DNA from: Onthophagus taurus
Taxonomy: Eukaryota > Arthropoda > Insecta > Coleoptera > Scarabaeidae
Direction of reading: 5' to 3'
NCBI RefSeq assembly: GCF_036711975.1
Contig: NC_091972.1
Span: forward strand, 24,743,001 to 24,807,000
DNA: 64,000 bases
The notes below the pieces were generated by a model that saw nothing but the letters and a program-made list of their open reading frames with translations, was not told the origin of the DNA and made no database searches. A program made the translations under genes and the position numbers. Shown here one piece after another: positions 1 to 38,398 of this stretch (its first letter is position 1; the number at the start of each line of letters is the position of its first letter).

Positions 1-1
1 A

Positions 2-16
2 TTCATTGAAGTTTAA
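2..16 (+). pseudogene. ATP: Last codons of Polinton A packaging ATPase
   Basis: The window opens in the final five codons (FIEV, stop) of the FtsK/HerA-type ATPase. The identity is taken from the same sequence at the end of the ATPase gene at 13587-14268. The rest lies outside the window. Confidence 0.7.
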
Positions 17-67
17 AACTAACGACATCAGCTGTACACTTCTTAGTAACTTCACATACATCATACA

Positions 68-1249
68 ATGAACAAGACGATAGCTGCAGAACTTATCGCA
101 GCACGAGAAGTTGTGAGAGACAAAATTCGTTCTTTAAAAGAGGACTTAGAGGAGTCAAGGATTCGGTCGGAAACCGCATATGCACCCATCGCGAGACCGT
201 TACAGGATATTGTCGCAAAACTTGACACTGCGCCTTTACTATCCATTCCAAAACGAAGTTTATCTCCAAAAGAAGAAAAATTGATATCTAAGATACAACG
301 TTACTCGCCGGATATTTCTGACGTACCAGCTAAAACCGAGACCGAATATTTTATTCGAAAACCGAAAGCGCCATTAAAAGAACAGCGACGAAAATTTGCT
401 ACATCGACTCCTGAAAAAAGGTTGGTATCTTCTTCTACGTCTTCTCCTCTTGGTCCATTAGCTCATGCAGAAGAAGAAGTATATGAAGTTCCGCCGGGCG
501 AACAAGAAGAACTCCTCGATTCTAGCGAGGATACCGGAGCTCTTATTTCGGACGCACATAATCGAATAGAACGACTTAAAGATGAAATAGAAGAAAGATT
601 GGAGTCTCCAGAGGTACAAGCCGCTTTGAGTCAGTTTCATCCTTTGCCCAGAACGTATATAACTGATTTACTGATAACTGATAACTGATTAACTGATTTA
701 AAAGATGATTATGATCGTTTATACGGTGTTCGCGAAACTCCCGAAGGTTTCTACATTGGAGTCAGTCCTGTTCACTTTGAGGATCAGGATATTCACGTTG
801 GAAACTTCAAATATACGGGAACCGTTGGTTTATATGATTTACTATTTAAAAACGAACCGGGCAAATTTACAATTCAGGACATGCGCAACTACAAAGATAT
901 CTTACTACGTTCAAATGCTCCGTACATTAATTACATTCCAGAGGCAGGTATGACTACTGAGGACGACAGTGAGAAATTTCAGAATATTATCAAGCCTATC
1001 GCTGAAGGTAACAAACCCAAGGTGCATTGGGCTAAATACTGGCCGAATCCGAAGAAAAAAGTCGGTGGTGTATTACAAAAACAAGTCGTCCCTGGGGCTC
1101 TTATCGAATACGAGTACTGGGACGATCCCAACGAACTTTTCGATAGACTGCGTTTGTTGATGGCCTCGCAAACGGCAGGTCATTCTGCACATGTCAATGA
1201 AATATCATCGATAATATCGGAGCTAACAGAGGCCGAGATTATACGTTAA
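68..1249 (+). pseudogene. Polinton late-region protein, DUF8207-like (Polinton A)
   Basis: The frame runs from ATG 68 to TAA at 1249 (about 393 codons), broken only by an in-frame TGA at 686-688. The stop lies in a short tandem array of ACTGAT-like units, so it probably arose by slippage. The N-terminal half is charged and predicted coiled coil (residues 1-60) followed by a low-complexity Ser/Pro/Glu linker. The conserved C-terminal half has blocks PRTYIT, YTGTVGLYDLLF, NYKDIL and EYEYWDDPNEL. Homologues sit at the same place, between ATPase and the small gene, in Polintons B and C. I relate it to the family annotated DUF8207 in insect genomes from memory; the function is unknown. The identical stop in copy B shows the lesion predates the duplication. 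Confidence 0.75.
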
Positions 1250-1318
1250 AATAATATCATAAATATACGACTCTCACATCTTTTGTTTTAAACCACCGAC
1301 GTTTATGAACTAGAGAAG

Positions 1319-1744
1319 ATCAGTTTAAGCAAGTTCGGAAAACATTCGTCTAGTATGACGATCGATAAGTTTGGTAAACACGTACACGGACACAACATTG
1401 CTGCTCATTTTAAGAAACGTGAAAACGTACAACGATATTTCAAACAACCAACAATACTTACGTTTAGCGGAGATGGAACTACGGATACAACGGATAATTA
1501 TTACATTGTTCAAAATTTAGGTTACGTAAGTAAATATATAAACTTTTTCTATATTGGTGAAATAGTGCATCACCGATTTGAAGGAGACGTTGAAATGATT
1601 ATTAACGGGAGTATCTTCGATCCAAATAAAAAGCTAAATGTTCTCTCCTTTGGAGATAAAATAGTTTACAAACCCAGAACAAAGACCACTTTACTCAAGA
1701 AACCATTTATGGTAGAACTGCTCATTGAAATATACAGAAAATGA
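1319..1744 (+). pseudogene. Small KFGKH-motif Polinton protein (Polinton A), start codon lost
   Basis: About 140 codons lie between the DUF8207-like gene and integrase. By alignment with the 135-aa homologue in Polinton C (24128-24535), translation should start at 1319, where the codon is ATC instead of ATG; the next ATG is at 1355. The N-terminus carries the motif KFGKH twice (SKFGKH and DKFGKH). The rest is predicted beta-rich, with LTFSGDG, a conserved FY near residue 78, and a hydrophobic end (FMVELLIE). The stop overlaps the integrase start (ATGA at 1741-1744). No function is recognised; a structural or capsid accessory role is only inferred from position. Confidence 0.65.
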
Positions 1745-2676
1745 GCGATATTAAAAGGTCCGTAGTAAACCAGTTGCACGCGTCCGTGAGGAAAAATTAT
1801 AAACGCAGACGTGTTATTATTAAAGGTTTAACGGACTTATTTCAAGCTGATTTAGTGGAGATGATACCTTATTCAAAAGCAAATGGTAATTTTAAGTATA
1901 TTCTAACAGTTATTAATGCTTTCTGAAAGTATGGATGGGCTGTACCACTAAAAAACAAAACTGGTAAAGAAGTTACGCGAGCTATGGAAACAATTCTATC
2001 GGAAAAGCGGAAAAACATACCGAAGAATCTGCAAACGGACAACGGAAAAGAATTTTACAATGAGGATTTTAAGAAGCTCGTGTCACGATATCACATCAAT
2101 CACTACAGTTCATTTTCCAATTTAAAGAGTTCTATTGTTGAACGGTTTAATAGAACAATAAAAGAAAAAATGTGGAAAGAATTTAGTATGCAAGGTAGCT
2201 ATCGTTGGTTGGAATTGCTTCCCAAATTAATTCTGGATTATAACAACCAAGTACATAGGACGATAGGAATGAAACCTAGCGAGGTAAATAACAGAAACGC
2301 ACCGACACTGTTAAAAACTGTTTATAATTACATAAAAATTGCTGATCCTTATACCAAAAAATTTAATGTCGGTGATCAGGTCAGAGTGAGCAAGCATCGA
2401 CACGCCTTCACCAAAAACTATACTCCCAATTGGTCTAACGAAGTGTTTACAATACATTCTGTTCGTAATACTTTCCCAACAACATATCTGCTCAAAGATG
2501 CATCCAATGAAAAAATTATGGGTGGTTTTTATCGAGAGGAATTACAAAAAGTTAAATATCCTGACGTCTACTTGGTGGAAAAAGTGCTACGGCGAAAAGG
2601 AAATCAAGTGTTTGTGAAATGGTTAGGATTAGGTCCGTCTCATAATTCTTGGATCTCAAAAACTAACGTTCTTTAG
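1741..2676 (+). pseudogene. INT: Retroviral-type integrase with chromodomain-like end (Polinton A)
   Basis: Polinton integrase of the rve superfamily, expected to insert the element into host DNA. All three catalytic acidic positions are visible (D in FQADLVEM, D in LQTDNGKEF, E in IVERFNRT). The C-terminus (YLVEKVLRRKGNQVFVKW, then NSWI) resembles a chromodomain. One in-frame TGA at 1924-1926 replaces the Ser codon of the conserved INAFSKY block, so the protein would stop after about 61 residues. The same stop is in copy B (16148-16150). The homologue in Polinton C is uninterrupted (311 aa). It lies tail to tail with POLB, 110 bp apart. Confidence 0.9.
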
Positions 2677-2786
2677 AACGTATATGTCGTATATATAAAC
2701 CCCTATATAAAAGTTCACAAGACTTTATTAACAATCGAACATTACAAATACATTATTATTATTATTCTTTACAATTTTTTCTAAAA

Positions 2787-4127
2787 TTAAATTAATTTAT
2801 TCGAATTCAATCTTTTTATCAACCAATGACCCCACGCCAAAGTATTACATCCGTTCGGTAATATGTATCGTTTATCATCGCACGATGAAAGAGCAATTTT
2901 ATTCTTTAATTCGGTATACATAGTATGAAATTCTGACTTAAAAATGTACATTTTTTTATGAATCGATCCGCCACATTCAACCACACGTTTATAATCGGTC
3001 ACGCTTAAATGTTTATCTATAACATATTTCTTTACTCCTTTAGCCTTTTTTACATTATCATTCAACAAGGTGATGCAGTACGCTTTAGCTCCTGTTCCAA
3101 CAAATGACGTTATGCACCTGTTTGGATATTCATCTTTCATTCTTCCCAACACAGATCGACCGCGAGGAATATTGTGTATATTCTCTAACGGATAATTGGA
3201 CGTATCAAAAAATTCAATATTTTCTTTTATATCCTCATATACATTGGGAGTAGTAATCTCTAGGATGAGGGAGTCAGTATCGGTGTATAAAAGTGTTATG
3301 TTATTTCCATATTTAACTTTTAAGTAATCATAGAAGAAGCTGTACATTCCGGTTTTCGAAAGCTCTAATATACTGAAATCCACATACAGCGGTTTGCAAT
3401 AACGAACTTCCGCGACGTTCAATTGAACGGCTATCAAATTATCGCAAAATATTTTTGAAGATTTAAAATTTGGTTTGGCTATTAGGGCTTCCACACCTGG
3501 TTTTTTATGACGACATTCCCAGTGGGTAACTAGTCTTACATCCACTCGCTTTTCCACATTTTCCATTGTCTTACCGTATACGATGTTATTCATTGCTTTG
3601 TAATGATTTTTTTCAAATTCATTCGTAGCTTTCGCACGTTTATCGGAATTGAAATCGATGTAGCTCCGCATCCAGTTGGATTGTTTAAATTCTAATACTC
3701 TGTAAATCTTCATTAGGTTCAATCCGAACTTGAGACACTGCTTTAGTTTCACGTAATGAATGATGTATTTTGTTTTATTTTCCAAATTTGCTATTAACTT
3801 TGCATTTTTTGAACCTGGTAAATCGTTGTGTTCATCATGTATTGCTTCCGGATACTCTAAATCTACCTCGAACACGTAACCCTTTTCGGAATCGTCTTCC
3901 GTATTGTAAATATCTAATTTTTGAATCTCCTCATCTGATAGCCATCGAAATCCTCCCGTCGGTAATTTTCGTCTCATTGCGTGTCCATACAAATTCGTAG
4001 CGTCGAGATACAAAATATAAGATGGGTCTTTGGTTTCATCAAATTCCATCATTAATTTATTGTTAGCCTTCGCACTGCGTTTAGTGCACATACTTAATCC
4101 ACCATTTCTTTCCCCATCAAAAAGCAC
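2787..4127 (-). pseudogene. POLB: Protein-primed DNA polymerase B, C-terminal part (Polinton A)
   Basis: This is the palm and thumb portion of a Polinton DNA polymerase. Motif A reads YLDATNLYG, motif B is YKAMNNIVYGK, and motif C is YTDTDSLIL with the two metal-binding aspartates. A 27-bp in-frame deletion relative to copy B (present there at about 18037-18070) removes residues before the PGSK block. The polymerase reading frame stops at the foldback element at 4104-4337. The N-terminal exons continue beyond it at 4586-6127, with roughly 370 codons of the middle (exonuclease region and what follows) missing compared with Polinton C. Confidence 0.9.
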
Positions 4128-6127: not shown

Positions 6128-6970
6128 TTTACAATTTAATGTTGTACACTTCTACTTGTTATGAAAGAACTACGTCAATACCACATTTCGCAGGCGTTTA
6201 TAAACCCTCACCGCTCCTGAAACTTATTGGGAGGAGGAGGATGCATCGAGTGCGTTTGTATACATGTATATTTTTAAACTCCGTATACCTTTGCATAATA
6301 AATTAAAAAAATATATCTCGCAGGTAGATCATGACTCACTTACTAGTATTAAGTTAATTGACCTCCTCGAACGTATCCCCCAAAAAATTTGCCGATTTAA
6401 GAACCTCCTCGCATATTTTAAAGCCCCGTATACCTTTACATAATAAAATAAAACAATATCCCGCAGGTAGGCCATGACTCACTTATTTGTATACCTACAT
6501 GTCTCAAAACCGTATACCTTTTTGTGTATAATAAGTTATAAGATATATCGAAGACATGTTCTAACAGTTCATTGAGAAACGTCGAAGGATAAACATAGTC
6601 ATTGTTTTCATCTAGGTAAACAAGTTACATATAAAGATAAATTTTTAACTTAATAAATTAATAAAACTTAAAATTTTTAATTTAATAAATTTTTCTTTCT
6701 CAAAATAACATGACCTAAATAAATAAAGAAATAAATAAATAAATAAATAAATTTTTAATAATTTCGTCAAAATAACACGACCTTCTCAAGTTAATTGACC
6801 TCCTCCTCTCCTCATCGAATCTCCTCCGACCCCTAAAAGAATCGCCGATTCAAGAACCTCCTCTCCTCATCGAACCTCCTCTGACCCCCAAAAAATTTGC
6901 CGATTCAAGAACCTCCTCCTAGAACGCAGGTTCGAGGAGAAGGTTCTAGAATCGGCGAATCTATACTACT
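6128..6970. repeat. Terminal region of Polinton A (TIR and POLB 5' region)
   Basis: Non-coding stretch upstream of POLB. It contains a repeat that starts with CGTATACCTTT at 6282, 6427 and about 6510 (spacing about 145 bp for the first two), short repeats of CCTCCTC, and GCCGATTC(A/T)AGAACC blocks near 6846 and 6899. The last 70 bp (about 6899-6956) form an inverted repeat ending at the terminus near 6970, the same design as the terminal hairpin of Polinton C. The partner TIR is outside the window. Confidence 0.7.
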
Positions 6971-6972
6971 CA

Positions 6973-7137
6973 TTAGATTTGACGGCGGTTTGGTTTAAAT
7001 TACCGTTGAAGTATAGAAACGATGAGCGATTACAAAGCAAGCTGCCCTGTTTTGAACATTATAATTTGCCTCATAGGGAAACGCATATTGATGGTCCACC
7101 ATCGGCAAGAAAGGATTGTTCTTTATGTAAGGTTTAA
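6973..7137 (+). pseudogene. 3' remnant of the conserved Polinton gene seen at 39935-40270
   Basis: A 54-codon open stretch ending in TAA at 7135-7137. It aligns with the C-terminus of the 111-aa protein of Polinton C: KLPCFEHYN and ETHIDGPPSARKDCSLC here, KLPCLEHYN and ETHFDGPPPPKMHCIKC there. The two Cys and the His-x-DGPP block are conserved. The 5' half is missing because the sequence starts at the Polinton A terminus. Function unknown. Confidence 0.8.
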
Positions 7138-7484: not shown

Positions 7485-7590
7485 CCGCCCATTCCCCCAC
7501 TCCTCCCCCTTTCCACGCCCCACCCCACGCCCCCCTTCATTACTTTACTATAAGAAGGCACCTCCCAGCCTTTGAAAGTCACTTCAGTGT
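7485..7590 (+). promoter_or_regulatory. Putative late promoter of Polinton B
   Basis: A C-rich stretch with CCACGCCCC-type boxes (7492-7536) is followed by TATAAG at 7549-7554 and an arthropod initiator TTCAGT with its A at 7586. The first splice donor (GTAAGT) follows at 7611. Spacing from TATA to Inr is slightly long (37 bp). Its place directly upstream of the leader units suggests it drives the capsid/packaging gene block. Confidence 0.55.
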
Positions 7591-8086
7591 TTGTGTTCTT
7601 CAGTTTTTTGGTAAGTACAACTTTCTTTATTATCATGTTTATATAACGTTCATTTTCTCTCCATCACTACAGATCTTTCTACAAGTTTCTCTTTTTTTGG
7701 TGAGTAAAACTATATTTGTTTTGCATGTTTATATAATATTTAAAATTATTTTTTTCCCAGTCCTAGACATCCTTCAGCTTTCTCTTTTTTGCTGACGTGT
7801 TTTATTTGGTAAGTAACCTTTTTTACTTTGCTTATACATATAATATGTAAAATATTCTTGTTTTGTTTCATCATAACACCTCTTTCTACTTTGTTTTTGT
7901 GAGTACAACTTGTTTATTTGTTTGTTATGTTAAATTGTTATTTTTATTTTTTCAATTCCTACAGGACCTTACTGCTGATCACTTCCATTTTTTTGTTTGA
8001 TCAGTTCGATCAGTTTTGATAACTTCGTTATCTCGGCTACTTTTTTCTGGTAAGTATAGCCTTCTTTTTCTTTGCATATATTGTTG
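7586..8086 (+). other. Series of mini exon-intron leader units (Polinton B)
   Basis: Consecutive donor and acceptor motifs define short introns: 7611-7672 (GTAAGT...CTACAG), 7700-7760 (GTGAGT...TCCCAG), a donor at 7809 (GTAAGT), a donor at 7899 (GTGAGT) with acceptor TCCTACAG ending at 7964, and a donor at 8050 (GTAAGT). The exons between are about 27-85 nt and pyrimidine-rich. The units resemble each other (donor followed by AACTT or similar, then TTTGCATATA), so they look like tandem duplicates. The series is cut by the LTR-like insertion at 8087 and resumes at 11837. No coding potential is seen. Confidence 0.6.
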
Positions 8087-8477
8087 TGTAACGGTTTTGT
8101 TTTCCGTTACTTATATTTTTGTGTTTGGTTAAAATTTTTTTTAAAATTTTAGTTCAAATTATCGTTGGAGATTGGTTGTGAGATTGTCGCTTTTTGATTG
8201 GTTCGAAGGTGGTTTGTAGCGAGCGACGGGTGGTTGATTTCTTGATTTGCCAGTCTCGTTCTAATCGTTGAGTAACGATAGTCATTTTTATCTTACGCTC
8301 CGTAAACATTATAAGAAAGCGTGGTTATTTAAGAAAAAGTTTTCAATTGTTGAATTTTTGGTTGTGATAAGGCTTTTTCGTCACGTTGTTGTAGATTTGG
8401 ACTCGTTTTTCTTTGGAAATCATATCGATTTACGCCGATGTATTCGGATTTAAAACGTTAAACACGTGAGACGTTCT

Positions 8478-10864
8478 TTAACCCTTAACTGGTCCGGTGA
8501 CTCATTTGTCGCACTAACAGTCAGGCGTAGTCTCCAGGACTACTTAACTTAATAGGTCAATAAGACTGCAAATGTGCAAATAAACTCAATATTTTGTTCA
8601 TTACTGGATACTATAGATATTAGGAAACTTGTATGCATAGAAATAAACTGAACTAAAGCAATATATAAAAAGAGTTTACCTAAATTATAATTTTTTCCGA
8701 AAAGTTAATTAAATCTAGTTTTATAGTAAGTACTTAATTATTATAAAACCTTAACAAACTTTCGTTTATGTTATTAGTTATGTTAGGTATTAGACAAACT
8801 AAAAAATAAAGGATAAATAAATTTGACAAAAATATCATATTCCAGCAAGGGCCAAAGTTTTTTATTTTTCAGCGCAGTCATTGCAGACTGGTTTTGTACA
8901 TTGTAGACAAACCGGCTTTTTGCAAGCAAGACACAAGTATTTTGTCATTCTATGTTTCTTTGAACGACACAAGTAGCAAATTTTATGTTTTTCTAGAATC
9001 AGATCATATGTCTTGGGTTCTTCTGCACCTGGGACTCCAAGTATTCTACCAATAGTACTGCGTAGTTCGCGTGGGATAACCGACATCGTCAACCGCCGTC
9101 TCATGTGATCCTCTACCAATTGCTTGGCTAGCTGCATTCCAAAAATACTTTTTTCTTTAATGGTTGGATTATCTCTATAACATTGGTGTAAGATATATGA
9201 ATTGATCACAGAAATGTCTAGTAGGCGAAAAAAAATTGCTAAAGGCCATCTTCGAGTGCGACGACTTGAGGTGCTTTTCGAACATTTTTCGTCCAGAGAA
9301 TCTACTCCGCCTTTATTTTCATTGTAGTAGGAAACTATTTCGGGCTTTTGTACTAATGGATCATCAAATCGTCTGTTATGCATGGACGATATTAGTATCG
9401 TGGCTTTTCCAATTTTACCAACATATGAAATCAACGTGCATTCTTTCCTGAATCCATACAGTGTTGAGTTAGCTGCTCTTTTCTTATTGGGTTGAAAAGA
9501 TTGTGGTATTTCGGCCTTATTTTTTTTTAGTCAAATTATTTTTCCATAACAGATCAACTACTTGTATGGAAGAATACCAATTGTCAGCTGTAATATTACG
9601 ATTGCTGTTAAAGATTGGTTTCGCTAAACGTAACACAGCTTGAGTAGGCTTTAGTAACCTCTTCTCTTCACCATTGAGACCAAAACTATCAGAATCTTTT
9701 CCCGTATAGATGTATGCGTTATATAGATAACTGTTTCGTGCGTCGGTAAGGCACTGTATTTTGAGGCCGTACTTTGCCGGTTTATTAGGAATGTGCACTT
9801 TGAAGCGGCACCTTCCTCGGAAGCATTTCATCTATTGTAACAGACTGTCCAAGTCCATAAACATTTTGACATTTTCTACAAATGTGTTGAAAACAAATGA
9901 AAATGCTGCAGCCGGATCGTTCTTCTTCCGCTCTTCCCTGTCCTGAGAATTGTCGAATCGTATAGCCGTCAAAAGAACAGCAAATCTCTTCTTACTCATG
10001 ACTGCTCTAAATATTTCTCTTCCACTTCCGTCCGTTGCGAATATACGGTCTATATTTTCATGACTCGAATTGAATATCGCCGTATATACTAGAAGCCCTA
10101 AAAATGCCTTCAGCTCAGTGATATCTGTGTCTGTTACATGATGTCTGGATTGTATAGAATATCTCTCACGAATTGAACTTAGTTTTTGGTTGGTGTGCTG
10201 TAGAATATGTTGAAACATTTTGTTATCGAAAAGCAAATTCCAGATTGGCAATGGATTCGCAGCATCATCGAGGTTACGTGCTTTTGATTTTAGAATCGGA
10301 ATTTTTATTATAATATTATGCTTTCGGGTCCGAGATGAAGGCAAAACTTCCGACGTACACCATCTATACCGATTTTTGCCATATAAATACTTCTTGTTCA
10401 CATTATCTACAATATTTACACTTTCATCTACGAAGTCCTCGCTAGCAGACAGTTCTGAATCGCTATCGTGCTCTAATTCAATTAGATTGTCTTCCGATAC
10501 GTTATCTATGTCGCTGTCGCCGCTGTCTGTAGTATTTTCGTACCATTTTAAAAGAGCTTTATCAAAATCAGGATCGTCACAAACCACTCGTTTTGAAGAC
10601 CCGGCCATATTTCGGTAAATCTACCACTAACAAAAAAGTTACACAAATGGACCGACGTAGTCTGAGAGACTATTATAGATATCTTACCCGTTATAACTTT
10701 TAAGCCGATGTTACAATCACGGTACAAATTTGTATACTAATGATGCTCAGAGAGGTGGGAGATTAGGCGGAAGGACAGGTTTGTACACGCTTTTAATAAC
10801 CGCTGAGAAACAAGTATTTCAATCGCGTAGTCTGCTGGACTACACCGGACCAGTTAAGGGTTAA
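8478..10864 (-). mobile_element. piggyBac element
   Basis: TTAA target duplications at 8478-8481 and 10861-10864. The element is 8482-10860 with terminal inverted repeats of about 18 bp (CCCTTAACTGGTCCGGTG). Subterminal GTAGTCT...AGACTAC-type blocks occur near 8524, 10649 and 10829. It carries one transposase pseudogene on -. Confidence 0.93.
8862..10608 (-). pseudogene. piggyBac transposase, frameshifted
   Basis: DDE transposase of the piggyBac family. The start is ATG 10608. An acidic N-terminus is followed by the catalytic core (TELKAFLGLL...; the second catalytic Asp in ITADNWYSS; the third in GGVDSLDEKCS) and a Cys-rich C-terminal zinc-binding region (CYLCRSKKHR, CLACKKPVCLQC, CNDC). 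Two closely spaced frame changes lie around 9820-9855, next to the first catalytic Asp block, and another lies in an A-run at about 9523-9532. It cannot make a full protein. Confidence 0.92.
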
Positions 10865-11836
10865 AGCCGCCCAAAAACTAAGGTACGTTATTCTATTGTG
10901 TAGATTTTGATTAATAATTGGATTCTTTTCTCGTTGTACGCTTTTTTTTTATTTTTTTTATCCTCGTTTTCATTTGCAATTTTATTTCTACTTCTATCAT
11001 TTGAAATTGCTATTGCTGCGTCATATAATTGTTTTGTGCCAATGGTTTGGTGACATTTCAACCTTTTGAGACCGTGGTGACCTTGGAAATATCGAATGGG
11101 TTGGCATCTCTGGTTGAAAGTTTAGATTTGTTGACATTAACCTACAAGACGTAAATTTGGTGGAACTTGGAAATTTGGTGGAACTTGGAAATTTGGAACT
11201 TGGAAGTTTGGGGGAACAGAGAAATTTTGGAGAGAACGTGAAGATCTGATTATCGAATAAATTAAAGGATCAGATAAGATATATATATATGTTTCATATT
11301 TTTTTCTACTGGATAATTTTCTTATAAGTTTTTTGTTATCGAATTATAATTACAATTTTTTTTGTGCACTTGGTCGCATTTGAGGAGTAATTTTTTGATA
11401 CGTGATTGTTGATTTTGTTTAAACGAATTTAAACGAATGTTTTGATTTTTATTTCCATATGCGATCTTGTTTAATCTTTACATGTGTAACTTCGATGAAA
11501 TCTATTATTTGCTTAAACATTTATACTGAAACGTTGTTATCTACGATTGAGAGGAATTGATATTTTATCAATATATATATGTTTACCAACATCATTTCAA
11601 TATTATTTCTCCGATTAATTGACTTGTTATAATATATTATTTGTTTATGTGTCTCTGGTTTCGGATTTTATTGGAGTGTGTGCTATATTTCTGGTAGGAA
11701 CCAAGGGATAAAATCCGTGGCGCCCTTAAAAAAAATTGATCGAACTCACCCGTCTCGACTGTTTCAAAGCTAGCTTGTGGTAGGGTTTCTATTGGGAATT
11801 GCTCTGTTTTTGAGTGTGTGTAAGTAAGGCGCGACA

Positions 11837-12076
11837 GTTGTTAATCTGTTTTTTTCATTCCTATACCTCCTTCTATTTTAAATTTCAATTTTTGTTGGTA
11901 AGTATAACTTTATTAGTCGAACGTTTGTATCATAATATCTACAATAATTTTTTATCATTCTATCATTCAGCACCCACTGCAATTAGATTTTAACGTTCTT
12001 TTCATCAAGCGATGTAAATATACATGATTTTTTATTAAAATAAAATAAATTTATGTATGAATCTTTTTTTATCAAG
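11837..12076 (+). other. Last leader unit and 5' UTR before the 12077 gene
   Basis: The leader series continues after the LTR-like insertion. An exon ends at 11897 before donor GTAAGTATAACTTT, the intron is 11898-11970 (acceptor TCATTCAG), and a final exon runs into ATG 12077. The donor context is almost the same as at 7611 and 8050. Confidence 0.55.
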
Positions 12077-13046
12077 ATGTCTCAAGACGGTTTTAGTCAA
12101 ATTGATTTAACTGCTCTCGGTTTCGCCAGCAGCCAGGAGTCATTCCTTTTAAACAGTTTTGACATAAACCTGTTGAACATATCGACTGTTGAGAAGGCGC
12201 TGGATCCAAACGTGCAGCCTAATGACCATCTAATGCGCAGATCCGTCGCTTCTGAACGTCGCAGGTTCCGCGAATGTCGACGATAAAAATGTGAAACGCC
12301 TTTCACTTCGTCGGAATTCGGGGAACCGTGAACATTGGAAGAAGGCTGCAGGTGTGTGGGTACCGTCAGAAAAGTATAGAGAGGAAAGACAAGAAAGAAG
12401 GGAGGCACGTGCTCGTTCGCGACGTAGCCAACGCAAGTATGTGTCAGTTGAACCAGCGACCCCGTCGAAGGTTGAAATGACACAGTCGAAAGTGGTTATC
12501 GAGAACGAGTCCGATAAATCCGACAACTCTCTTGCTTTAATAGCGGTATCACAACACTGTAGTACCGTAAACCGGAAGTATCTTAAAGCTACTAAGGCTT
12601 CTTCTTCTAAAGCTTCATTAACTCCTGCTCCCGTTACTAACTTAAATATTCCTAACACCGAAATTCCTTCGTTAAGCCCGCAAGTACACATCTTAAGGGT
12701 TGACAATATTCCTGCTAATATTCCTGCTACTTCAGATATTTCCGATGTGTCTGCCAGCCTTTTTTCAAACGCAATGTGTACAGCAGTAGAAACTACCAAA
12801 GGGGTGATTTTAGCCGAAATTAATAGTTTATACCCAAATTTTTATAAAGACCTTCATGAAAAGGTTCGTCAATTGCAAACCTCTTTGAGAGAGCTTTCAC
12901 AGTTTAGAGAAGGGCTGGCGTCGAGCTGTAACAATTCTTTAACAATATCGCTCGACATCACCATAGCATCATTAACCTGTGAAATTAAAAAGGCTGAATC
13001 TATTTTATCTAGTTTCACTACTAATAGCGTAAACTTTCCTTCCTAG
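12077..13046 (+). pseudogene. Unrecognised Polinton B late-region protein, frameshifted
   Basis: ATG 12077 is preferred over 12053 because it directly follows the leader exon. The first frame (MSQDGFSQIDLTALGF...) runs to 12286. A second frame is open from 12234 to 13046, so the coding continues through a frame change in the 53-bp overlap. The second part has a basic Arg-rich stretch (EERQERREARARSRR), then a Ser/Thr/Pro-rich linker, then an alpha-helical C-terminal region (LHEKVRQLQTSLREL). It occupies the position of the Pro-rich gene at 38399-39470 in Polinton C, but I see no clear sequence similarity. Whether the frame change is decay or programmed cannot be decided here. Confidence 0.6.
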
Positions 13047-13053: not shown

Positions 13054-13384
13054 ATGACTGCTAACATGAGAGTTAATCACATGGTTAGATTGTGTGAATT
13101 GGAGCAGAAAGTTGCCTCGTTGGAGGTAAAATTAGAAGCTCTATTTAAGTTGGTACGTTATACTTATAATACTTTTTTCCATGCCATTAATTTTATCTTC
13201 TCAGCTGCAGAGCGTGTCAGAATCGGCAGTGGTGAGGGGTGAAGTGCATGTGCAAAACATGCACATTAACCGTTGCACTACATCTGTTAGTTCACCGACT
13301 CCGGCAACGACTCCGGCACCAGCAGCACCACCTCCTTACGAAGAAGTAAACCAAATATATCAAGACGAGGAGGAGGAGTGGTAA
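13054..13384 (+). CDS. Small spliced coiled-coil protein with PPPY motif
   Basis: Exon 1 runs from ATG 13054 to 13152 and ends in a leucine-rich coiled coil (LCELEQKVASLEVKLEAL). A 52-bp GT-AG intron (donor GTACGT at 13153, acceptor TTCTCAG ending at 13204) joins it to exon 2 in frame, which continues to TAA at 13384. Exon 2 carries a Pro/Ala/Thr-rich linker, the PPPY motif and an acidic end (EEEEW). PPxY is the known docking site for Nedd4-type ubiquitin ligases and is used by many viral structural proteins; that role here is inference. It starts 8 bp after the preceding gene. Reading through the intron would give a different short tail, so splicing is favoured by the motif-rich exon 2. Confidence 0.6.
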
Positions 13385-13511: not shown

Positions 13512-13547
13512 TATATAAAGTTACTTTTGCTATATTTTTATTCAGTC
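13512..13547 (+). promoter_or_regulatory. TATA/Inr promoter of the ATPase gene (Polinton B)
   Basis: TATATAAAG at 13512-13520 and initiator TTCAGTC with its A at 13544, 32 bp apart, the usual insect core-promoter spacing. ATG follows at 13587. Confidence 0.65.
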
Positions 13548-13586: not shown

Positions 13587-14268
13587 ATGATCGATAAGAA
13601 ACTAAAGTGTTTACCGCAACCGCTAACACTGCCAATACTAAATTTTAGTAAAGGTACGACCGAAGAACACTTTACAAGACACAGTAATTTATTTGGTGGA
13701 AGATGTAAGCGAGGTTTAATTTTAGGACCCTCTGGTGTCGGAAAAACAAATGCTATGTTATCGCTTTTACTTGCACGTAATGGCCTGCGCTTCCTAAACT
13801 TATACTTATGCTCCAATTCGTTATACCAAAATAAGTACGATTTTTTAAGACGTTTAATTGAACCTATAAAAGATTGCGGTTACTATGAATTTTCTAATAT
13901 AGATGAGTTTATTCGACCGGAAGATGCGAAAGAATATTCGATAGTCGTATTTGACGATGTTTCCTGTACAGGTCAAAATGTCATTAAGGAATTTTTTTCG
14001 TATGGTCGACATAAAAACATTGATTGCTTTCTAATTTGTCAAAGTTATAGTGCAATTCCAAAACTTTTTAGTGTTATTTAAACAAGACTTAACAAATTTA
14101 AAACACGTGTTTGAAGATCACATAATGAGCGATATGGAGTTTCATCGGCTAAAGGAAATTAGCGACGCTTGTTGGGAGAATAGACACGGCATCCTAGTTA
14201 TTGATTTAGATTGCAGTGTATCTAAGGGACGTTACCGGAAGGGTTTTGATAAATTCATTGAAGTTTAA
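13587..14268 (+). pseudogene. ATP: FtsK/HerA-type packaging ATPase (Polinton B)
   Basis: A32-like DNA-packaging ATPase of Polintons, expected to pump DNA into the capsid. The Walker A motif GPSGVGKT is near residue 52 and Walker B (SIVVFDD) near residue 117; the conserved end is HGILVIDLDC...GRYRKGFD. Compared with the Polinton C copy, a small deletion near 14060 removes about eight residues (the QLLRDNCN block) and shifts the frame, giving a stop at 14081; the correct frame resumes to 14268. Total length is about 227 codons, close to the C copy. Confidence 0.9.
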
Positions 14269-14319
14269 AACTAACGACATCAGCTGTACACTTCTTAGTA
14301 ACTTCACATACATCATACA

Positions 14320-15473
14320 ATGAACAAGACGATAGCTGCAGAACTTATCGCAGCACGAGAAGTTGTGAGAGACAAAATTCGTTCTTTAAAAGAGGACTTA
14401 GAGGAGTCAAGGATTCGGTCGGAAACCGCATATGCACCCATCGCGAGACCGTTACAGGATATTGTCGCAAAACTTGACACTGCGCCTTTACTATCCATTC
14501 CAAAACGAAGTTTATCTCCAAAAGAAGAAAAATTGATATCTAAGATACAACGCTACTCGCCGGATATTTCTGACGTACCAGCTAAAACCGAGACCGAATA
14601 TTTTATTCGAAAACCGAAAGCGCCATTAAAAGAACAGCGACGAAAATTTGCTACATCGACTCCTGAAAAAAGGTTGGTATCTTCTTCTACGTCTTCTCCT
14701 CTTGGTCCATTAGCTCATGCAGAAGAAGAAGTATATGAAGTTCCGCCGGGCGAACAAGAAGAACTCCTCGATTCTAGCGAGGATACCGGAGCTCTTATTT
14801 CGGACGCACATAATCGAATAGAACGACTTAAAGATGAAATAGAAGAAAGATTGGAGTCTCCAGAGGTACAAGCCGCTTTGAGTCAGTTTCATCCTTTGCC
14901 CAGAACGTATATAACTGATTTACTGATAACTGATAACTGATTAACTGATTTAAAAGATGATTATGATCGTTTATACGGTGTTCGCGAAACTCCCGAAGGT
15001 TTCTACATTGGAGTCAGTCCTGTTCACTTTGAGGATCAGGATATTCACGTTGGAAACTTCAAATATACGGGAACCGTTGGTTTATATGATTTACTATTTA
15101 AAAACGAACCGGGCAAATTTACAATTCAGGACATGCGCAACTACAAAGATATCTTACTACGTTCAAATGCTCCGTACATTAATTACATTCCAGAGGCAGG
15201 TATGACTACTGAGGACGACAGTGAGAAATTTCAGAATATTATCAAGCCTATCGCTGAAGGTTACAAACCCAAGGTGCATTGGGCTAAATACTGGCCGAAT
15301 CCGAAGAAAGGGGGGGGGGGGCTCTTATCGAATACGAGTACTGGGACGATCCCAACGAACTTTTCGATAGACTGCGTTTGTTGATGGCCTCGCAAACGGC
15401 AGGTCATTCTGCACATGTCAATGAAATATCATCGATAATATCGGAGCTAACAGAGGCCGAGATTATACGTTAA
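14320..15473 (+). pseudogene. DUF8207-like Polinton protein (Polinton B)
   Basis: Near-identical to 68-1249, with the same in-frame TGA (14938-14940). In addition the segment from about 15308 is replaced by a run of 12 G (15310-15321) with a net loss of 28 bp, which shifts the frame before the EYEYWDD block. The run looks like a repair scar or a sequencing/assembly error. Confidence 0.75.
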
Positions 15474-15542
15474 AATAATATCATAAATATACGACTCTCA
15501 CATCTTTTGTTTTAAACCATCGACGTTTATGAACTAGAGAAG

Positions 15543-15968
15543 ATCAGTTTAAGCAAGTTCGGAAAACATTCGTCTAGTATGACGATCGATAAGTTTGGTA
15601 AACACGTACACGGACACAACATTGCTGCTCATTTTAAGAAACGTGAAAACGTACAACGATATTTCAAACAACCAACAATACTTACGTTTAGCGGAGATGG
15701 AACTACGGATACAACGGATAATTATTACATTGTTCAAAATTTAGGTTACGTAAGTAAATATATAAACTTTTTCTATATTGGTGAAATAGTGCATCACCGA
15801 TTTGAAGGAGACGTTGAAATGATTATTAACGGGAGTATCTTCGATCCAAATAAAAAGCTAAATGTTCTCTCCTTTGGAGATAAAATAGTTTGCAAACCCA
15901 GAACAAAGACCACTTTACTCAAGAAACCATTTATGGTAGAACTGCTCATTGAAATATACAGAAAATGA
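15543..15968 (+). pseudogene. Small KFGKH-motif protein (Polinton B), start codon lost
   Basis: Copy of 1319-1744 with the same ATC in place of the start codon at 15543-15545 and one coding substitution (Tyr to Cys near 15890). Its stop overlaps the integrase start at 15965. Confidence 0.65.
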
Positions 15969-16900
15969 GCGATATTAAAAGGTCCGTAGTAAACCAGTTG
16001 CACGCGTCCGTGAGGAAAAATTATAAACGCAGACGTGTTATTATTAAAGGTTTAACGGACTTATTTCAAGCTGATTTAGTGGAGATGATACCTTATTCAA
16101 AAGCAAATGGTAATTTTAAGTATATTCTAACAGTTATTAATGCTTTCTGAAAGTATGGATGGGCTGTACCACTAAAAAACAAAACTGGTAAAGAAGTTAC
16201 GCGAGCTATGGAAACAATTCTATCGGAAAAGCGGAAAAACATACCGAAGAATCTGCAAACGGACAACGGAAAAGAATTTTACAATGAGGATTTTAAGAAG
16301 CTCGTGTCACGATATCACATCAATCACTACAGTTCATTTTCCAATTTAAAGAGTTCTATTGTTGAACGGTTTAATAGAACAATAAAAGAAAAAATGTGGA
16401 AAGAATTTAGTATGCAAGGTAGCTATCGTTGGTTGGAATTGCTTCCCAAATTAATTCTGGATTATAACAACCAAGTACATAGGACGATAGGAATGAAACC
16501 TAGCGAGGTAAATAACAGAAACGCACCGACACTGTTAAAAACTGTTTATAATTACATAAAAATTGTTGATCCTTATACCAAAAAATTTAATGTCGGTGAT
16601 CAGGTCAGAGTGAGCAAGCATCGACACGCCTTCACCAAAAACTATACTCCCAATTGGTCTAACGAAGTGTTTACAATACATTCTGTTCGTAATACTTTCC
16701 CAACAACATATCTGCTCAAAGATGCATCCAATGAAAAAATTATGGGTGGTTTTTATCGAGAGGAATTACAAAAAGTTAAATATCCTGACGTCTACTTGGT
16801 GGAAAAAGTGCTACGGCGAAAAGGAAATCAAGTGTTTGTGAAATGGTTAGGATTAGGTCCGTCTCATAATTCTTGGATCTCAAAAACTAACGTTCTTTAG
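15965..16900 (+). pseudogene. INT: Integrase with shared internal stop (Polinton B)
   Basis: Copy of 1741-2676. It has the same TGA (16148-16150) and the same intact catalytic positions and chromodomain-like end, with one residue change (Ala to Val in the block before DPYTKKF). The shared stop shows it was dead before the duplication. Confidence 0.9.
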
Positions 16901-17010
16901 AACGTATATGTCGTATATATAAAGACCTATATAAAAGTTCACAAGACTTTATTAACAATCGAACATTACAAATACATTATTATTATTATTCTTTACAATT
17001 TTTTCTAAAA

Positions 17011-18378
17011 TTAAATTAATTTATTCGAATTCAATCTTTTTATCAACCAATGACCCCACGCCAAAGTATTACATCCGTTCGGTAATATGTATCGTTTATC
17101 ATCGCACGATGAAAGAGCAATTTTATTCTTTAATTCGGTATACATAGTATGAAATTCTGACTTAAAAATGTACATTTTTTTATGAATCGATCCGCCACAT
17201 TCAACCACACGTTTATAATCGGTCACGCTTAAATGTTTATCTATAACATATTTCTTTACTCCTTTAGCCTTTTTTACATTATCATTCAACAAGGTGATGC
17301 AGTACGCTTTAGCTCCTGTTCCAACAAATGACGTTATGCACCTGTTTGGATATTCATCTTTCATTCTTCCCAACACAGATCGACCGCGAGGAATATTGTG
17401 TATATTCTCTAACGGATAATTGGACGTATCAAAAAATTCAATATTTTCTTTTATATCCTCATATACATTGGGAGTAGTAATCTCTAGGATGAGGGAGTCA
17501 GTATCGGTGTATAAAAGTGTTATGTTATTTCCATATTTAACTTTTAAGTAATCATAGAAGAAGCTGTACATTCCGGTTTTCGAAAGCTCTAATATACTGA
17601 AATCCACATACAGTGGTTTGCAATAACGAACTTCCGCGACGTTCAATTGAACGGCTATCAAATTATCGCAAAATATTTTTGAAGATTTAAAATTTGGTTT
17701 GGCTATTAGGGCTTCCACACCTGGTTTTTTATGACGACATTCCCAGTGGGTAACTAGTCTTACATCCACTCGCTTTTCCACATTTTCCATTGTCTTACCG
17801 TATACGATGTTATTCATTGCTTTGTAATGATTTTTTTCAAATTCATTCGTAGCTTTCGCACGTTTATCGGAATTGAAATCGATGTAGCTCCGCATCCAGT
17901 TGGATTGTTTAAATTCTAATACTCTGTAAATCTTCGTTAGGTTCAATCCGAACTTGAGACACTGCTTTAGTTTCACGTAATGAATGATGTATTTTGTTTT
18001 ATTTTCCAAATTTGCTATTAACTTTGCATTTTTTGAACCTGGGGGTACAATCCGTTCTGGACAAAATGGTAAATCGTTGTGTTCATCATGTATTGCTTCC
18101 GGATACTCTAAATCTACCTCGAACACGTAACCCTTTTCGGAATCGTCTTCCGTATTGTAAATATCTAACTTTTGAATCTCCTCATCTGATAGCCATCGAA
18201 ATCCTCCCGTCGGTAATTTTCGTCTCATTGCGTGTCCATATAAATTCGTAGCGTCGAGATACAAAATATAAGATGGGTCTTTGGTTTCATCAAATTCCAT
18301 CATTAATTTATTGTTAGCCTTCGCACTGCGTTTAGTGCACATACTTAATCCACCATTTCTTTCCCCATCAAAAAGCAC
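17011..18378 (-). pseudogene. POLB: DNA polymerase B, C-terminal part (Polinton B)
   Basis: Copy of 2787-4127 that keeps the 27 bp missing in A (residues FCPERIVPP before GSK). Motifs A, B and C are all readable. The N-terminal exons, present in A at 4586-6127, are absent because the element ends at the satellite junction 18690. Confidence 0.9.
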
Positions 18379-24128: not shown

Positions 24129-24535
24129 TACTCTACAACCCCTTCAATCAACAACTCTACAAGAAAAGGTAGTCCTCCTATCGGTACATTATTTTTACAC
24201 TTAATGGTATCTCCGCGTTTGAGTTGGACTCCCTGGAGCGACTTAATAACGATATCGTTAACAAGTAACTGAACATGAGCGGACTTTACAACATCTTTTA
24301 TCATACCTTCGTAGAAAGAATTGATGTAATCCGTAATTCCACTTTTGTTTGTGATTTTATAAAGTTTTGTTTTTGGATCAACATCTCCATCACCACGTAA
24401 AGTTAAAATAAATGTTGATGAAGGTTGTAGAACCTCGGATCTTGCTATGTGGTTCTGTATAACATGGTGGTGAACATGCTTACCAAATTTATCGATAGAT
24501 GTAGAACCATGTTCACCAAAACGGTTTAAAGGCAT
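24128..24535 (-). CDS. Small KFGKH-motif protein (Polinton C)
   Basis: An intact 135-residue frame. The N-terminus has two related motifs, NRFGEHG and DKFGKHVHHH, followed by a probably beta-rich body (FILTLRGDGDVD, YINSFYEGMI, LPFLVELLIE). It is conserved in order and sequence with the A and B copies and always directly precedes integrase. No known domain is recognised. A TATA/Inr promoter lies just upstream, so it heads its own small transcription unit with integrase. A fibre-like or capsid-decoration role is possible but unsupported. Confidence 0.8.
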   Translation of the reverse strand: MPLNRFGEHGSTSIDKFGKHVHHHVIQNHIARSEVLQPSSTFILTLRGDGDVDPKTKLYKITNKSGITDYINSFYEGMIKDVVKSAHVQLLVNDIVIKSLQGVQLKRGDTIKCKNNVPIGGLPFLVELLIEGVVE

Positions 24536-24542
24536 ATTGGCT

Positions 24543-24577
24543 TCTGAAGCGTCACAGAAACAGAAAAAAGTTTATAT
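24543..24577 (-). promoter_or_regulatory. Promoter for the KFGKH/integrase pair
   Basis: On the - strand GTATATAAAC (24570-24579) is followed about 30 bp later by CTTCAGA (24543-24549) and then ATG at 24535. It sits in the short gap after the DUF8207-like gene. Confidence 0.55.
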
Positions 24578-24581: not shown

Positions 24582-24884
24582 TTAACGAATGACTTGCGCT
24601 TCCCGTAATTCCTCTATGAGGGATATAATTTCGTTATGATGAGCAGTATGACCTGTTGTTTCGGAAGCAAGTAGTAAACGCAACCGATCAACTAATTCGT
24701 TCACGTCGTCCCAGTATTCGTACTCTTTAATTGCAGCAGGTACTAACAACTTATTTAAGTGACCTGATCCAGTTTTAGGTTTTGGCCAATATCGAGCCCA
24801 GTACACATTTGGTCTTTGACCCAAGGAAATTGGTTTGATTATGTTCACAAACTTTTCATTTTTATCATCAGTTATGATACTTTT
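24582..24884 (-). pseudogene. DUF8207-like gene, 3' part, cut by BEL insertion (Polinton C)
   Basis: Carries the conserved C-terminal blocks (NIIKPI, VYWARYWPKP, EYEYWDDVNEL, SETTGHTAHHNEI). Its 5' part is at 35629-36477, 10.7 kb away. CTTTT at 24880-24884 is one of the two target duplications; the reading frame rejoins across the insertion. Confidence 0.9.
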
Positions 24885-25116
24885 TGTTTTTGATTTTATC
24901 TGGTTCGCGCTGGTTAACACGAATTCTTTTAGTTTTTGATTTATTCGATGTTTATTAATTATTTATCTTAGACGATGAATACGGCGTGATGCCAGCGAAA
25001 CGAATTTTTTGCTACTCACTCATTTTTTTTTATTTGTTTGTATCGACGAACACTAAATTTTCAAAGCAATAGGCAACCCAAGTTGCAGGTAACAATAATT
25101 CTAATTAATCTAAACA
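24885..25116 (-). repeat. BEL 3' LTR, with polypurine tract beside it
   Basis: 232 bp, pairs with 35397-35628 with about three differences. The adjoining 25117-25130 reads on - as a G-rich polypurine tract (AAGGTGGGGGG). Confidence 0.95.
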
Positions 25117-25213
25117 TACCCCCCACCTTGAAAGAACCCCTTTCAATACAACAAAAAGATATGACATAAATATAAAATAAAAAGTCTCAAACTGCAAAGT
25201 TTTATAACACTGT

Positions 25214-26884
25214 TCAAATAGGTAGCGGACACAACTTCACTACTGCTCGTTTTATTGTGTTTGATGCTGTTTTTACTGTTGCTACACGCACAATTCCATC
25301 TTCTCCCGGGTGCAGTTTAATAATTCTTCCCATAGCCCATTTTAATGTAGGTAAATTGTCTTCTTTAATCACTACTAATTGATTTTCTTTTAAATTGTTG
25401 TCACCATTTACCCACTTGGAACGTTTCTGGAGTTCCGCCAAGTATTCTTTGGACCATCTTGACCAAAAATGTTGTTGCACTTGCTGAATGTGTTGGAAAT
25501 TAGACAAACGATTGATTTTGATATGCCTCAAATCTGCATCAGCCGGTGATGTGAGTGTTTTACCAATTAGGAAATGTGCTGGGGTTAAAGGAGTCATATC
25601 GTCGGGATGTGTGGATAACGAAGTTAGCGGACGGGAATTAACAATCGCTTCGATCTGAACCAGCAATGTTACAAAATCTTCAAAGGTAAATGAAGTGTTA
25701 CCAGTTACACGTTTAAGATGGAATTTAACTGATTTAATTCCCGCTTCCCATAGTCCACCAAAATGGGGTGAATTTGGAGGGATAAAAGACCAATTAATGG
25801 ATGCTTCGTTGATGATATGAGTTAAATTATTACAATTACTTATTAAGAAGTTACCTAATTCGTTTAGTGCACGATTTGCACCCACAAAATTTGTACCATT
25901 ATACAAGAACATTTGTTGAGGCATACCTCTCCTACCCGCGAAACGCCGTAGTGCAGATATAAAACAATCGGTAGTTAGTTCGCTCACCAATTCAAGGTGA
26001 ATAGCTCGCGTAACAAAACACACGAACAAACATATGTAGCACTTGATAGTTTTTGAACCACGACCTTTCTTATTTTTGAGCATGAAAGGACCCACGTAAT
26101 CTACACCGGTAGTATGAAAAGGCGGAGCCGGACTCACACGTTGACAAGGTAAATTGCCCATTTGAGGTTGTGGACATCGTGGCTTTGCTCGAAAACATTT
26201 TGTGCATTCACGTGTTATCTTTTTTGATAAATTTCGCCCCCCTATAGGCCAAAATCGCTCGCGAATAGAGGCCAGCAAATGCTGTGGACCTGTGTGCAAT
26301 AACATCTTATGTTCATTCTCAAAAATTAATCGTGCTAAAACATGTTTGCAAGATATAACTATTGGAAATTTTTTATCAAAAGTATAGTTAGAGTTTCCTA
26401 ATCGACCACCTACGCGTAATATTCCATCGTTGTCTAAAAATACATTTAATTTTGCCAATGGATTTTTCTTTGGTATATTTTTAGCATTTTTTAAAAACGA
26501 TATTTCATTTAAAAACGATTGTTGTTGACTACATCTTATGATAAAACTCATAGCATCTCGTAGTTCGTCGCTTTTCAAAGAATCAGCGCGCTTTGTATTA
26601 GCTGGTTTACAATTATTACAGAATCTAATCATATATGCGACAACTCGTTTTAAACGTGTCAATGAAGAAAATTTAAAAAATGGGACAATACAATCTGTTG
26701 TTGTCGTTATGGAGGCAATAGTTTGTTTAATTTCAGGTAAAATTTCTTTTCTGAAAACACGTGTGGGCCACATACTTTCATCTTTTCTTAACCATTCTGG
26801 TCCGTTCCAATAAATACATAAACCTGACAATTCGATTGCTTCGACCCCACGCGAAACTGGATCGGCCGGGTTATCAGATGATAC
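25214..26884 (-). pseudogene. pol: BEL pol, C-terminal part: integrase
   Basis: Starts at the Gypsy insertion point and continues the frame of 31765-35221. It contains a His/Cys zinc region (HKMLLHTG...CTKCFRAKP), the rve integrase core (first Asp in GVDYVGPF, Glu in FGGLWEAGIK) and the BEL-type C-terminal domain (LVVIKEDNLP...GRIIKLHPG). The second catalytic Asp, in a block that normally reads SDNGTNF, is Tyr here (LYNGTNF; codon at 25901-25903), so strand transfer should be dead. The frame is otherwise open to the stop at 25214. Confidence 0.93.
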
Positions 26885-27280
26885 TGTCACCAAGTACGAA
26901 TTGAGCGCCGTTCGATCTGCTTGCCCATTGGTCGTCAACCCGACCTACGGATCGGACGGTCGCCAACCAACCACAACGCCCGGTTGATAGAGTTTTACCC
27001 AAGGGCGCCTATTTAAGGCGGCCGGGTTTCCATCAGCGGTGAATTCCAACCGAACTCCGAAGCGACAACAACAGCGACAACGATAACAGCGACAACAGCA
27101 GCGACAACGATAACAGCGACAACAAGCCAGCACTTCAACCGCCAATTCGAAGACGACCCCTTTCGTCTAAAAAAAAAAAACCTTTGAGGGTTTTTTTTTG
27201 TACATATTTTTGTAAATAAATTATTTCGTTTTATTCAACAACTGTTGTTTCTTCTTCGGCGCAATCCATCTCCCGTAACA
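26885..27280 (+). repeat. Gypsy 5' LTR (396 bp)
   Basis: TGTCACCAAG...CCGTAACA. Contains TATTTAAG near 27008, an expanded run of GCGACAACAGC/ACGATAAC-type units (about 27061-27125) absent from the 3' LTR, an A-run/T-run hairpin around CCTTTGAGGG (27171-27200), and AATAAA-type signals near 27217. Confidence 0.95.
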
Positions 27281-27282
27281 AT

Positions 27283-27300
27283 TGGCGCCCAACGTGGGGC
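27283..27300 (+). promoter_or_regulatory. Gypsy primer-binding site
   Basis: TGGCGCCCAACGTGGGGC starts two bases after the LTR. From memory it is complementary to the 3' end of insect tRNA-Lys(CUU). Confidence 0.8.
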
Positions 27301-27306
27301 CCGATA

Positions 27307-28284
27307 ATGCCAAAAGGACCAACAACGAGAAGCCGTTCATTGTCGACACGGCCATATCCGACGAAGGAAGATTTGGCAAGCTCTTCAGAAGAAGAGGGGT
27401 CCACCCAACCGATTAAAGAAGAGAAGAAAGGAAAAGAATCCCAAACGCAGAAGATGGGGAAAACCGCCGAAGAACCGAAACAAGACAGTGCGACCGTTCA
27501 GACACAGGTTTGCGCCCTGTCAAAGTTATTGGCCGAACATGTCTGCATTCCAAAAGCCGAGCCCCCGTGCTTCACCGGCGATTCCTTGGAGGATCCTGCA
27601 GAATTCATCAAGGTAATAAAGACATATTTCACTGACACCGGCATTCCATCAGCGGAACAAACAAAGAAAGCGACCAGTTTTCTTCGAGAAGATGCCGCTG
27701 TGTGGTGGAGTGCATTCGATGATTTGGAGATGTCCTTCGCGGAATTTCACCAAGCGCTGTTGGAAAGGTTCAACAGTCCGCAAATATTGGCACAAGTCAA
27801 CGGCCAATATTTCAGCCGCCATCAGCAGACTGATGACTCGGTGCAATCGTTTTTGAAACGCAAACACCTGCAAGCCCGTCGTCTGCACCGAAAACCGGAC
27901 GACGACATTGGAATGATGGTTGCCCTGCTGCTACCTCAGCTACAGCTGCACCTGTCCCCCACGCCGGCCAACATACACGAGTTGCGACACAAAGCAATTC
28001 GCACGGAGGCGCTTCTGAAGAAGTCGGGCCTCCTCAAACAACCCACAACACCATCTCCAAAGGGTAAGAAGACTCCTGAAGGGGACAACGAGGACCCCAA
28101 GAAGAAGGTGCCCCGATGCTGGTACTGCCCCGGGTACCATTGGAACCGTGACTGTCCCCTACAACGCAGCACCGGGAAACGAAACGGCGGCCGTTCGCCC
28201 AGGACAACCCGGACGGCCGCAGTAATCTCTACATTGGAGGAACCTGGTTGCTCCAGCCGCTCGACTGTAATAATCGAGAAATAA
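27307..28284 (+). CDS. gag: Gypsy Gag
   Basis: 325 residues from the first ATG after the primer site. It has a charged N-terminus, a capsid-type core (FTGDSLEDPAEFIKVIKTYF, then WWSAFDDL) typical of retrotransposon Gag, and one CCHC zinc knuckle (CWYCPGYHWNRDC, near residue 277) that would bind genomic RNA. Pol lies in a different frame (+1 relative to gag), open from 28274, so an 11-nt overlap is available for a frameshift. Intact. Confidence 0.95.
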   Translation: MPKGPTTRSRSLSTRPYPTKEDLASSSEEEGSTQPIKEEKKGKESQTQKMGKTAEEPKQDSATVQTQVCALSKLLAEHVCIPKAEPPCFTGDSLEDPAEFIKVIKTYFTDTGIPSAEQTKKATSFLREDAAVWWSAFDDLEMSFAEFHQALLERFNSPQILAQVNGQYFSRHQQTDDSVQSFLKRKHLQARRLHRKPDDDIGMMVALLLPQLQLHLSPTPANIHELRHKAIRTEALLKKSGLLKQPTTPSPKGKKTPEGDNEDPKKKVPRCWYCPGYHWNRDCPLQRSTGKRNGGRSPRTTRTAAVISTLEEPGCSSRSTVIIEK

Positions 28285-31414: not shown

Positions 31415-31423
31415 GGGAGGGGG
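31413..31423 (+). promoter_or_regulatory. Gypsy polypurine tract
   Basis: GAGGGAGGGGG immediately before the 3' LTR; it overlaps the pol stop codon. Confidence 0.85.
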
Positions 31424-31764
31424 TGTCACCAAGTACGAATTGAGCGCCGTTCGATCTGCTTGGCCATTGGTCGTCAACCCGACCTACGGATCGGACGGTC
31501 GCCAACCAACCACAACGCCCGGTTGATAGAGTTTTACCCAAGGGCGCCTATTTAAGGCGGCCGGGTTTCCATCAGCGGTGAATTCCAACCGAACTCCGAA
31601 GCGACAACAAGCCAGCACTTCAACCGCCAATTCGAAGACGACCCCTTTCGTCTAAAAAAAAAAACCTTTGAGGGTTTTTTTTTGTACATATTTTTGTAAA
31701 TAAATTATTTCGTTTTATTCAACAACTGTTGTTTCTTCTTCGGCGCAATCCATCCCCCGTAACA
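31424..31764 (+). repeat. Gypsy 3' LTR (341 bp)
   Basis: Same as the 5' LTR except that it lacks 55 bp of the GCGACAAC-type repeats and has a few single-base changes (for example CTTGGCC for CTTGCCC). Confidence 0.95.
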
Positions 31765-36477: not shown

Positions 36478-36540
36478 AGTTCAACGTGATAGTGTAATGA
36501 TCGCACAGAGACTGAGCATGCAGTCGTAAAGTCAATGGTT

Positions 36541-38353: not shown

Positions 38354-38398
38354 TGCAATAGAGAAAAAAACTGAACGAGCTTCAAAAAAAAAACGCTA

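Follow-up and report, generated by a model that had tools for sequence, protein, structure and literature searches.

A predicted multi-intron spliced 5′ leader in a Polinton family of the beetle Onthophagus taurus

We analysed a 64,000-nucleotide (nt) stretch of the Onthophagus taurus genome (NC_091972.1, positions 24,743,001–24,807,000 of the forward strand; hereafter the window, in whose coordinates positions are given), which holds pieces of three Polintons, A, B and C. Polinton B contains what we take, with moderate confidence, to be the spliced 5′ leader of a transcription unit for two open reading frames (ORFs), X and X2, of a Polinton family in this beetle. In uninterrupted copies of this family, a TATA box, a start, seven GT-AG introns of 53–79 nt and the ATG of gene X follow one another in that order, and the leader is continuous, measuring 724–751 nt from start to ATG in the six copies measured. 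The original prediction had read the interval 7586–12076 as a multi-exon late leader coordinating a capsid/packaging block. By comparison with shuffled sequence and with other copies, the splice motifs in that interval are real and far beyond chance, and the part of the claim that stands on sequence is a non-coding leader behind a TATA box. The capsid/packaging block is unsupported, because no capsid gene was recognised in the frames scanned and the ATPase gene downstream appears to have TATA and initiator sites of its own.

The anatomy can be followed directly in the window copy, on the plus strand throughout. The TATA box (TATAAG) lies at 7549–7554 and the probable start, TCACTT, at 7579–7584, with its A at 7581, 32 nt past the TATA T. 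The original prediction had the TATA box right and placed the initiator at 7586; however, the TTCAGTG found there occurs in just 7 of 39 alignment rows, against 38 of 39 for GTCACTT, and transcription therefore probably starts at 7581 instead. The spacing from GTCACTT to TATAAGAAGG is fixed in 35 of the 36 rows holding both, and the long string ACTATAAGAAGG is found in 28 of 39 rows. Exon 1 (7581–7610), intron 1 (7611–7672, 62 nt), exon 2 (7673–7699), intron 2 (7700–7766, 67 nt), exon 3 (7767–7808), intron 3 (7809–7879), exon 4 (7880–7898), intron 4 (7899–7964, 66 nt) and exon 5 (7965–8049) follow. Intron 5, with an insertion, spans 8050–11866 and is succeeded by exon 6 (11867–11897), intron 6 (11898–11970, 73 nt), exon 7 (11971–12013) and intron 7 (12014–12076, 63 nt), whose acceptor sits at the X start codon and reads AG in 36 of 38 other copies.

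All six donors named in the original prediction (7611, 7700, 7809, 7899, 8050 and 11898) exist, as do the acceptors ending at 7672, 7964 and 11970. Acceptor 2 had been placed at 7760/7761, but 29 of 40 rows, in three patterns, have CCAC where the window copy shows CCCAG (last base 7760); the better candidate is 7766 (TCCTAG), with AG in 38 of 38 other copies. In the window copy, acceptors 3 (7878–7879) and 5 (11865–11866) read AC, although 37 of the 38 others have AG at each; some of its donors are thus left without a matching acceptor. The seventh intron had been overlooked, and intron 5 runs across an insertion to reach its acceptor. This insertion, of ~3.75 kb (8087–11840, ends approximate), is absent from the other aligned copies, in the complete ones of which intron 5 measures 62–72 nt, and we therefore rejected ~8087–11840 as leader architecture. 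Nested in it is a piggyBac-like element (8482–10860, minus strand; DDE_Tnp_1_7 at 9832–10608) with TTAA on both sides. The intron 7 donor is weakened to GTAAAT in the window, compared with GTAAGT in 34 of 38 others. The window copy is thus a decayed one, having lost acceptors 3 and 5, with donor 7 weakened and X frameshifted.

Matches to the leader stretch 7500–8200 number at least 41 in the genome (40 of 91 candidates scored); two of these belong to a single neighbouring copy, and the count includes the window itself once. We fetched 39 copies (L009–L047) and excluded L036, in which the X start was not found, from the leader alignment, which comprises 38 copies and the window copy as two separate rows, 40 rows in all. 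All seven introns were called by pattern in 30 of the 38 copies, the other eight missing at least one through deletion, mutation or pattern miss. The alignment thus reveals seven introns that the decay and insertion of the window copy obscure. Depending on the intron, the donor GT is retained in 36–38 of the 38 copies, and so is the acceptor AG of introns 2–7; for intron 1 the acceptor count is obscured by gap placement, the motif being visible in the aligned patterns. Six of the 30 complete copies duplicate an earlier sequence, leaving 24 distinct, and because the copies are related to each other their agreement is not independent. Ten further copies, several of them truncated, were used only in some comparisons. 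Neighbouring copy L025 has lost the segment from intron 5 to intron 7.

Scoring against shuffled sequence bore out the original prediction as well. In the four copies tested (of 38), not one of the 1000 shuffles made for each reached the splice chain. All four have seven GTRAG[TC] donors in the leader, where shuffling gave means of 0.31–0.45 (maximum 3–4 in 1000), and their chains comprise five introns above threshold. Even the decayed window stretch 7581–8153 holds a two-intron chain that 0 of 1000 shuffles reach. When 506 windows of 750 nt were scored (253 per strand), a chain of at least two introns appeared only in those starting at 7251 and 7501. Applied to all 38 copies, the chain scorer found five introns in 31, four in 4 and three in 3. 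The placement of ATGs follows the same division into exons and introns: across the 30 complete copies the exons total 260–295 nt and are ATG-free in 29 (L013 has one ATG), and the introns total 426–472 nt and carry 5–8 ATGs upstream of X.

The last leader acceptor ends exactly at the start codon of X (12077–13046, plus strand), whose frame is broken in the window copy into frames 12044–12286 and 12234–13046. Its nearest proteins (P0001–P0005) are all from O. taurus, and a low-confidence structure prediction shows it as largely disordered, ending in long C-terminal helices (mean predicted local distance difference test score (pLDDT) 44.5). A second acceptor, a branch-point-like ACTAAT followed by TTCCCTTCCTAG (13020–13046, plus strand), overlaps the X stop codon and lies directly ahead of X2; of 39 rows that passed a filter, which admits a row lacking the X start, 37 have it. 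X2 (13054–13384, plus strand) contains a 52-nt intron at 13153–13204 and had no match in the protein collection. NCBI protein P0007 corresponds to splicing of a GCAG^GT donor within X onto CCTTCCTAG^ ahead of X2, together with excision of the X2 intron, and an annotation pipeline has therefore spliced across the two ORFs. Through this second acceptor, the leader may possibly serve as an adenovirus-like leader common to X and X2. The ATPase gene is preceded by TATAAA at 13514 with TCAGT 30 nt on (13514–13546, plus strand), an arrangement also seen in L025, and is therefore probably transcribed on its own; the first part of its frame lies at 13587–14081 (plus strand).

Three further observations concern these genes. 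The tail of X2 has a PPPY motif and an acidic end terminating in tryptophan, and P0007 has a similar PPPPY and acidic tail; PPxY is a late-domain motif. Three leader copies spaced ~19.3–19.5 kb apart (L048–L050, G000:C11:4060000-4103000) have X frames repeated behind the leader. The C10 copies (L051, G000:C10:15176900-15177900) are without the promoter-to-exon-5 stretch, yet their X is open.

Polinton C has a leader in the same place, in the order small gene, leader, unknown gene, ATPase, and its sequence is unlike that of the B leader. It includes two tandem exon-intron units spaced at 141 nt, whose 60-nt introns (39747–39806 in unit 1 and 39606–39665 in unit 2, minus strand) are identical and whose exons are nearly so. 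The small gene is at 39935–40270 (minus strand) in C; in B it is a remnant (6970–7137, plus strand; match at G000:C7:24749970-24750131) covering residues 54–107 of the 111 of the C form. The original prediction was therefore correct that a small gene precedes both leaders, though it is only partial in B; its further argument that a conserved position implies function is weakened, since the exons show no more conservation than the introns and the stretches before four more distant ATPases contain no GTRAG[TC] donor. In C copy L061 the exons are ATG-free and each repeat intron has three ATGs; the C copy of the window carries, in its final leader exon, an ATG absent from L061. The ORF after X′, the X counterpart in C, is also preceded by a pyrimidine-rich acceptor-like stretch, and X′ has one match in the protein collection, from O. 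taurus. The C leader stretch (region 35500–41000) is 99–100% identical at 40 scored places, and among the matches listed, 61 places besides the window match the C ATPase piece at 97–99%; the family has therefore probably spread recently.

Traces of a comparable origin were found in the B leader. In copy L019, intron bodies stripped of their splice sites are alike for introns 2 and 3, 3 and 5, and 2 and 6 (1, 1 and 0 of 300 shuffles, respectively). Under the model we favour, exon-intron units were duplicated in tandem to give at least some of the leader introns, and Polinton C is a fresh case. Among stretches downstream of other small genes (L068–L072), L069 has the two-unit C form and L070 one C unit cut off by foreign sequence; none of the five holds a new leader, and L068, L071 and L072 showed nothing clear.

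From this anatomy we infer the splicing itself, the start site, ribosome scanning and the use of the leader for both ORFs. RNA polymerase II would start ~32 nt past the TATA box; the seven short introns, at least some of them products of unit duplication, would be removed, and the seven small exons, ~280–300 nt in sum, would make up a leader that lacks AUG in nearly every copy; the first start codon met by a scanning ribosome would then be that of X. Use of the second acceptor would connect this transcript to X2. A more ambitious version, in which Polintons have an adenovirus-style unit with one promoter, a multipartite AUG-free leader that grows by exon-intron duplication and alternative acceptors before successive ORFs, seems to us unlikely, if worth stating.

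Several results weigh against the favoured reading. P0007 is a database model whose underlying evidence is not visible, and P0001, labelled isoform X1, begins inside intron 7, so that this model either retains intron 7 or begins within it. Intron paralogy was found in 3 of 21 pairs, in the one copy examined. The ATG pattern alone is weak evidence, because intron masks shifted along the sequence match the low number of exonic ATGs in 8–30% of shifts for six B copies and 10% for C. In 20 between-subfamily pairs drawn from 9 copies, exon identity (0.919) does not exceed intron identity (0.942), and the two ends of introns (0.966 and 0.964) are slightly better conserved than their middles (0.926). 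Two subfamilies that differ by 11–12% at the X start share 98% identity from exon 1 to intron 2, a stretch that exchange between copies may therefore have homogenised. In the diverged copy L057 all 16 core splice bases tested are intact, which is only suggestive given its 87.4% identity elsewhere. No processed (spliced) copy was present among the 40 of 79 candidates scored, and none of those listed spans predicted junctions, except that the window copy matches query 1–50 at 86%, running past junction 1. Finally, the stretches before more distant ATPases in L062, L063, L064 and L066 are without any GTRAG[TC] donor; together with L065 and L067, which have one acceptor-like site and no such leader, they rule out a leader common to all Polintons of the genome. 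The L062 stretch contains an integrase-like frame, read by eye.

The lack of extra conservation in the exons would be expected if the leader were an ordinary multi-intron 5′ untranslated region (UTR) of X alone, AUG-free and not shared with X2, whose introns had multiplied by duplication without selection. The final acceptor lying exactly at the X start codon and the promoter-like sites of the ATPase fit this explanation too, but it leaves aside the X2 acceptor, kept in nearly all filtered rows and used by one NCBI protein model, and we regard it as somewhat unlikely. The start of P0001 within intron 7 could instead point to a switch controlled by splicing, in which upstream ATGs in retained introns would block translation of X until their removal in a permissive tissue activated it, much as the P element is spliced in a tissue-limited manner. 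The 5–8 intronic ATGs and the low scores of several donors (introns 4 and 6) are consistent with such a switch; most donors, however, are near the standard consensus, suggesting routine splicing, and we consider it quite improbable. Chance splice-like motifs are hardly credible as an explanation: the leader is T-rich, and the copies, being related, do not agree independently, but shuffling never reproduced the chain in the four copies tested, the region is the sole one of its kind among the 506 windows, and Polinton C carries a second, different leader. A spliced leader for X and X2 remains the reading that we prefer.

The closest known counterpart is the adenovirus tripartite leader, a spliced leader of 201 nt that is free of AUG and becomes attached to a variety of mRNA bodies (PMC7851563). 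Like it, the beetle leader is short, predicted to be spliced and AUG-free in nearly all complete copies (29 of 30); candidate acceptors lie before X and X2. It differs in having seven small exons rather than three leaders, and introns of 53–79 nt, whereas adenovirus leader introns are far longer; moreover, it has only two candidate bodies, neither a recognised capsid gene. It thus appears to be built like the tripartite leader, in a likeness of architecture known here from sequence alone. With multi-intron 5′ UTRs of insects it shares short U2-type introns of ~60 nt, a TATA promoter and AUG-free exons, but it packs seven introns into ~740 nt within a mobile element and seems partly built from repeated exon-intron units. 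The two copies of a 141-nt unit with identical introns in Polinton C resemble intron multiplication by tandem duplication; in the intron-duplication model an exon piece bearing AGGT is copied in tandem, whereas in Polinton C a whole intron and exon are copied.

We found no paper on spliced leaders of Polintons in the literature searched, in which subscription journals were largely out of reach. Polintons and adenoviruses are kin, and the beetle leader touches on the question of whether leader splicing of the adenovirus type began earlier; were an adenovirus-style unit general among Polintons, spliced multipartite leaders would predate adenoviruses within this lineage of DNA viruses. With seven mini-introns preserved across dozens of copies, and an unlike leader of the same logic in a second family, the system offers a concrete transcript map in a beetle whose near-identical Polinton C copies probably spread recently. 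The leaders may also record introns in the course of multiplying by tandem duplication.

On the basis of their polymerase, integrase and ATPase, the window elements are Polintons/Mavericks. A protein-primed type B DNA polymerase is present in Polinton C (PF03175, E=1.8e-16); the B and A fragments gave no Pfam match. A retroviral-type integrase is found in C (rve, E=2.9e-13) and in B (rve and Chromo), and B has an A32/FtsK-type packaging ATPase (Pox_A32, E=6.5e-08, in the frame at 13587–14081). Among the frames scanned, neither Pfam nor PHROGs identified a major or minor capsid protein or a protease, no integrase relatives were found in IMG/VR, and a PDB sequence search with two frames returned no match for one and a single match for the other that is not credible (E=0.13). 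Pieces A and B are arranged in tandem, parts of 1–4115 recurring at 14253–18366, and C is inverted relative to them. A frame of ~150 amino acids adjoins the integrase in B (15516–15965) and C (24131–24571, minus strand), with 38% identity between the two; the B frame has a mostly beta predicted structure of low confidence (mean pLDDT 45.6). Frames of Pao/BEL-type and Gypsy-type retroelements break up Polinton C (24585–35221). At 47031–60618, frames of 103 amino acids on the plus strand recur every multiple of ~152–304 bases, which points to a satellite-like array.

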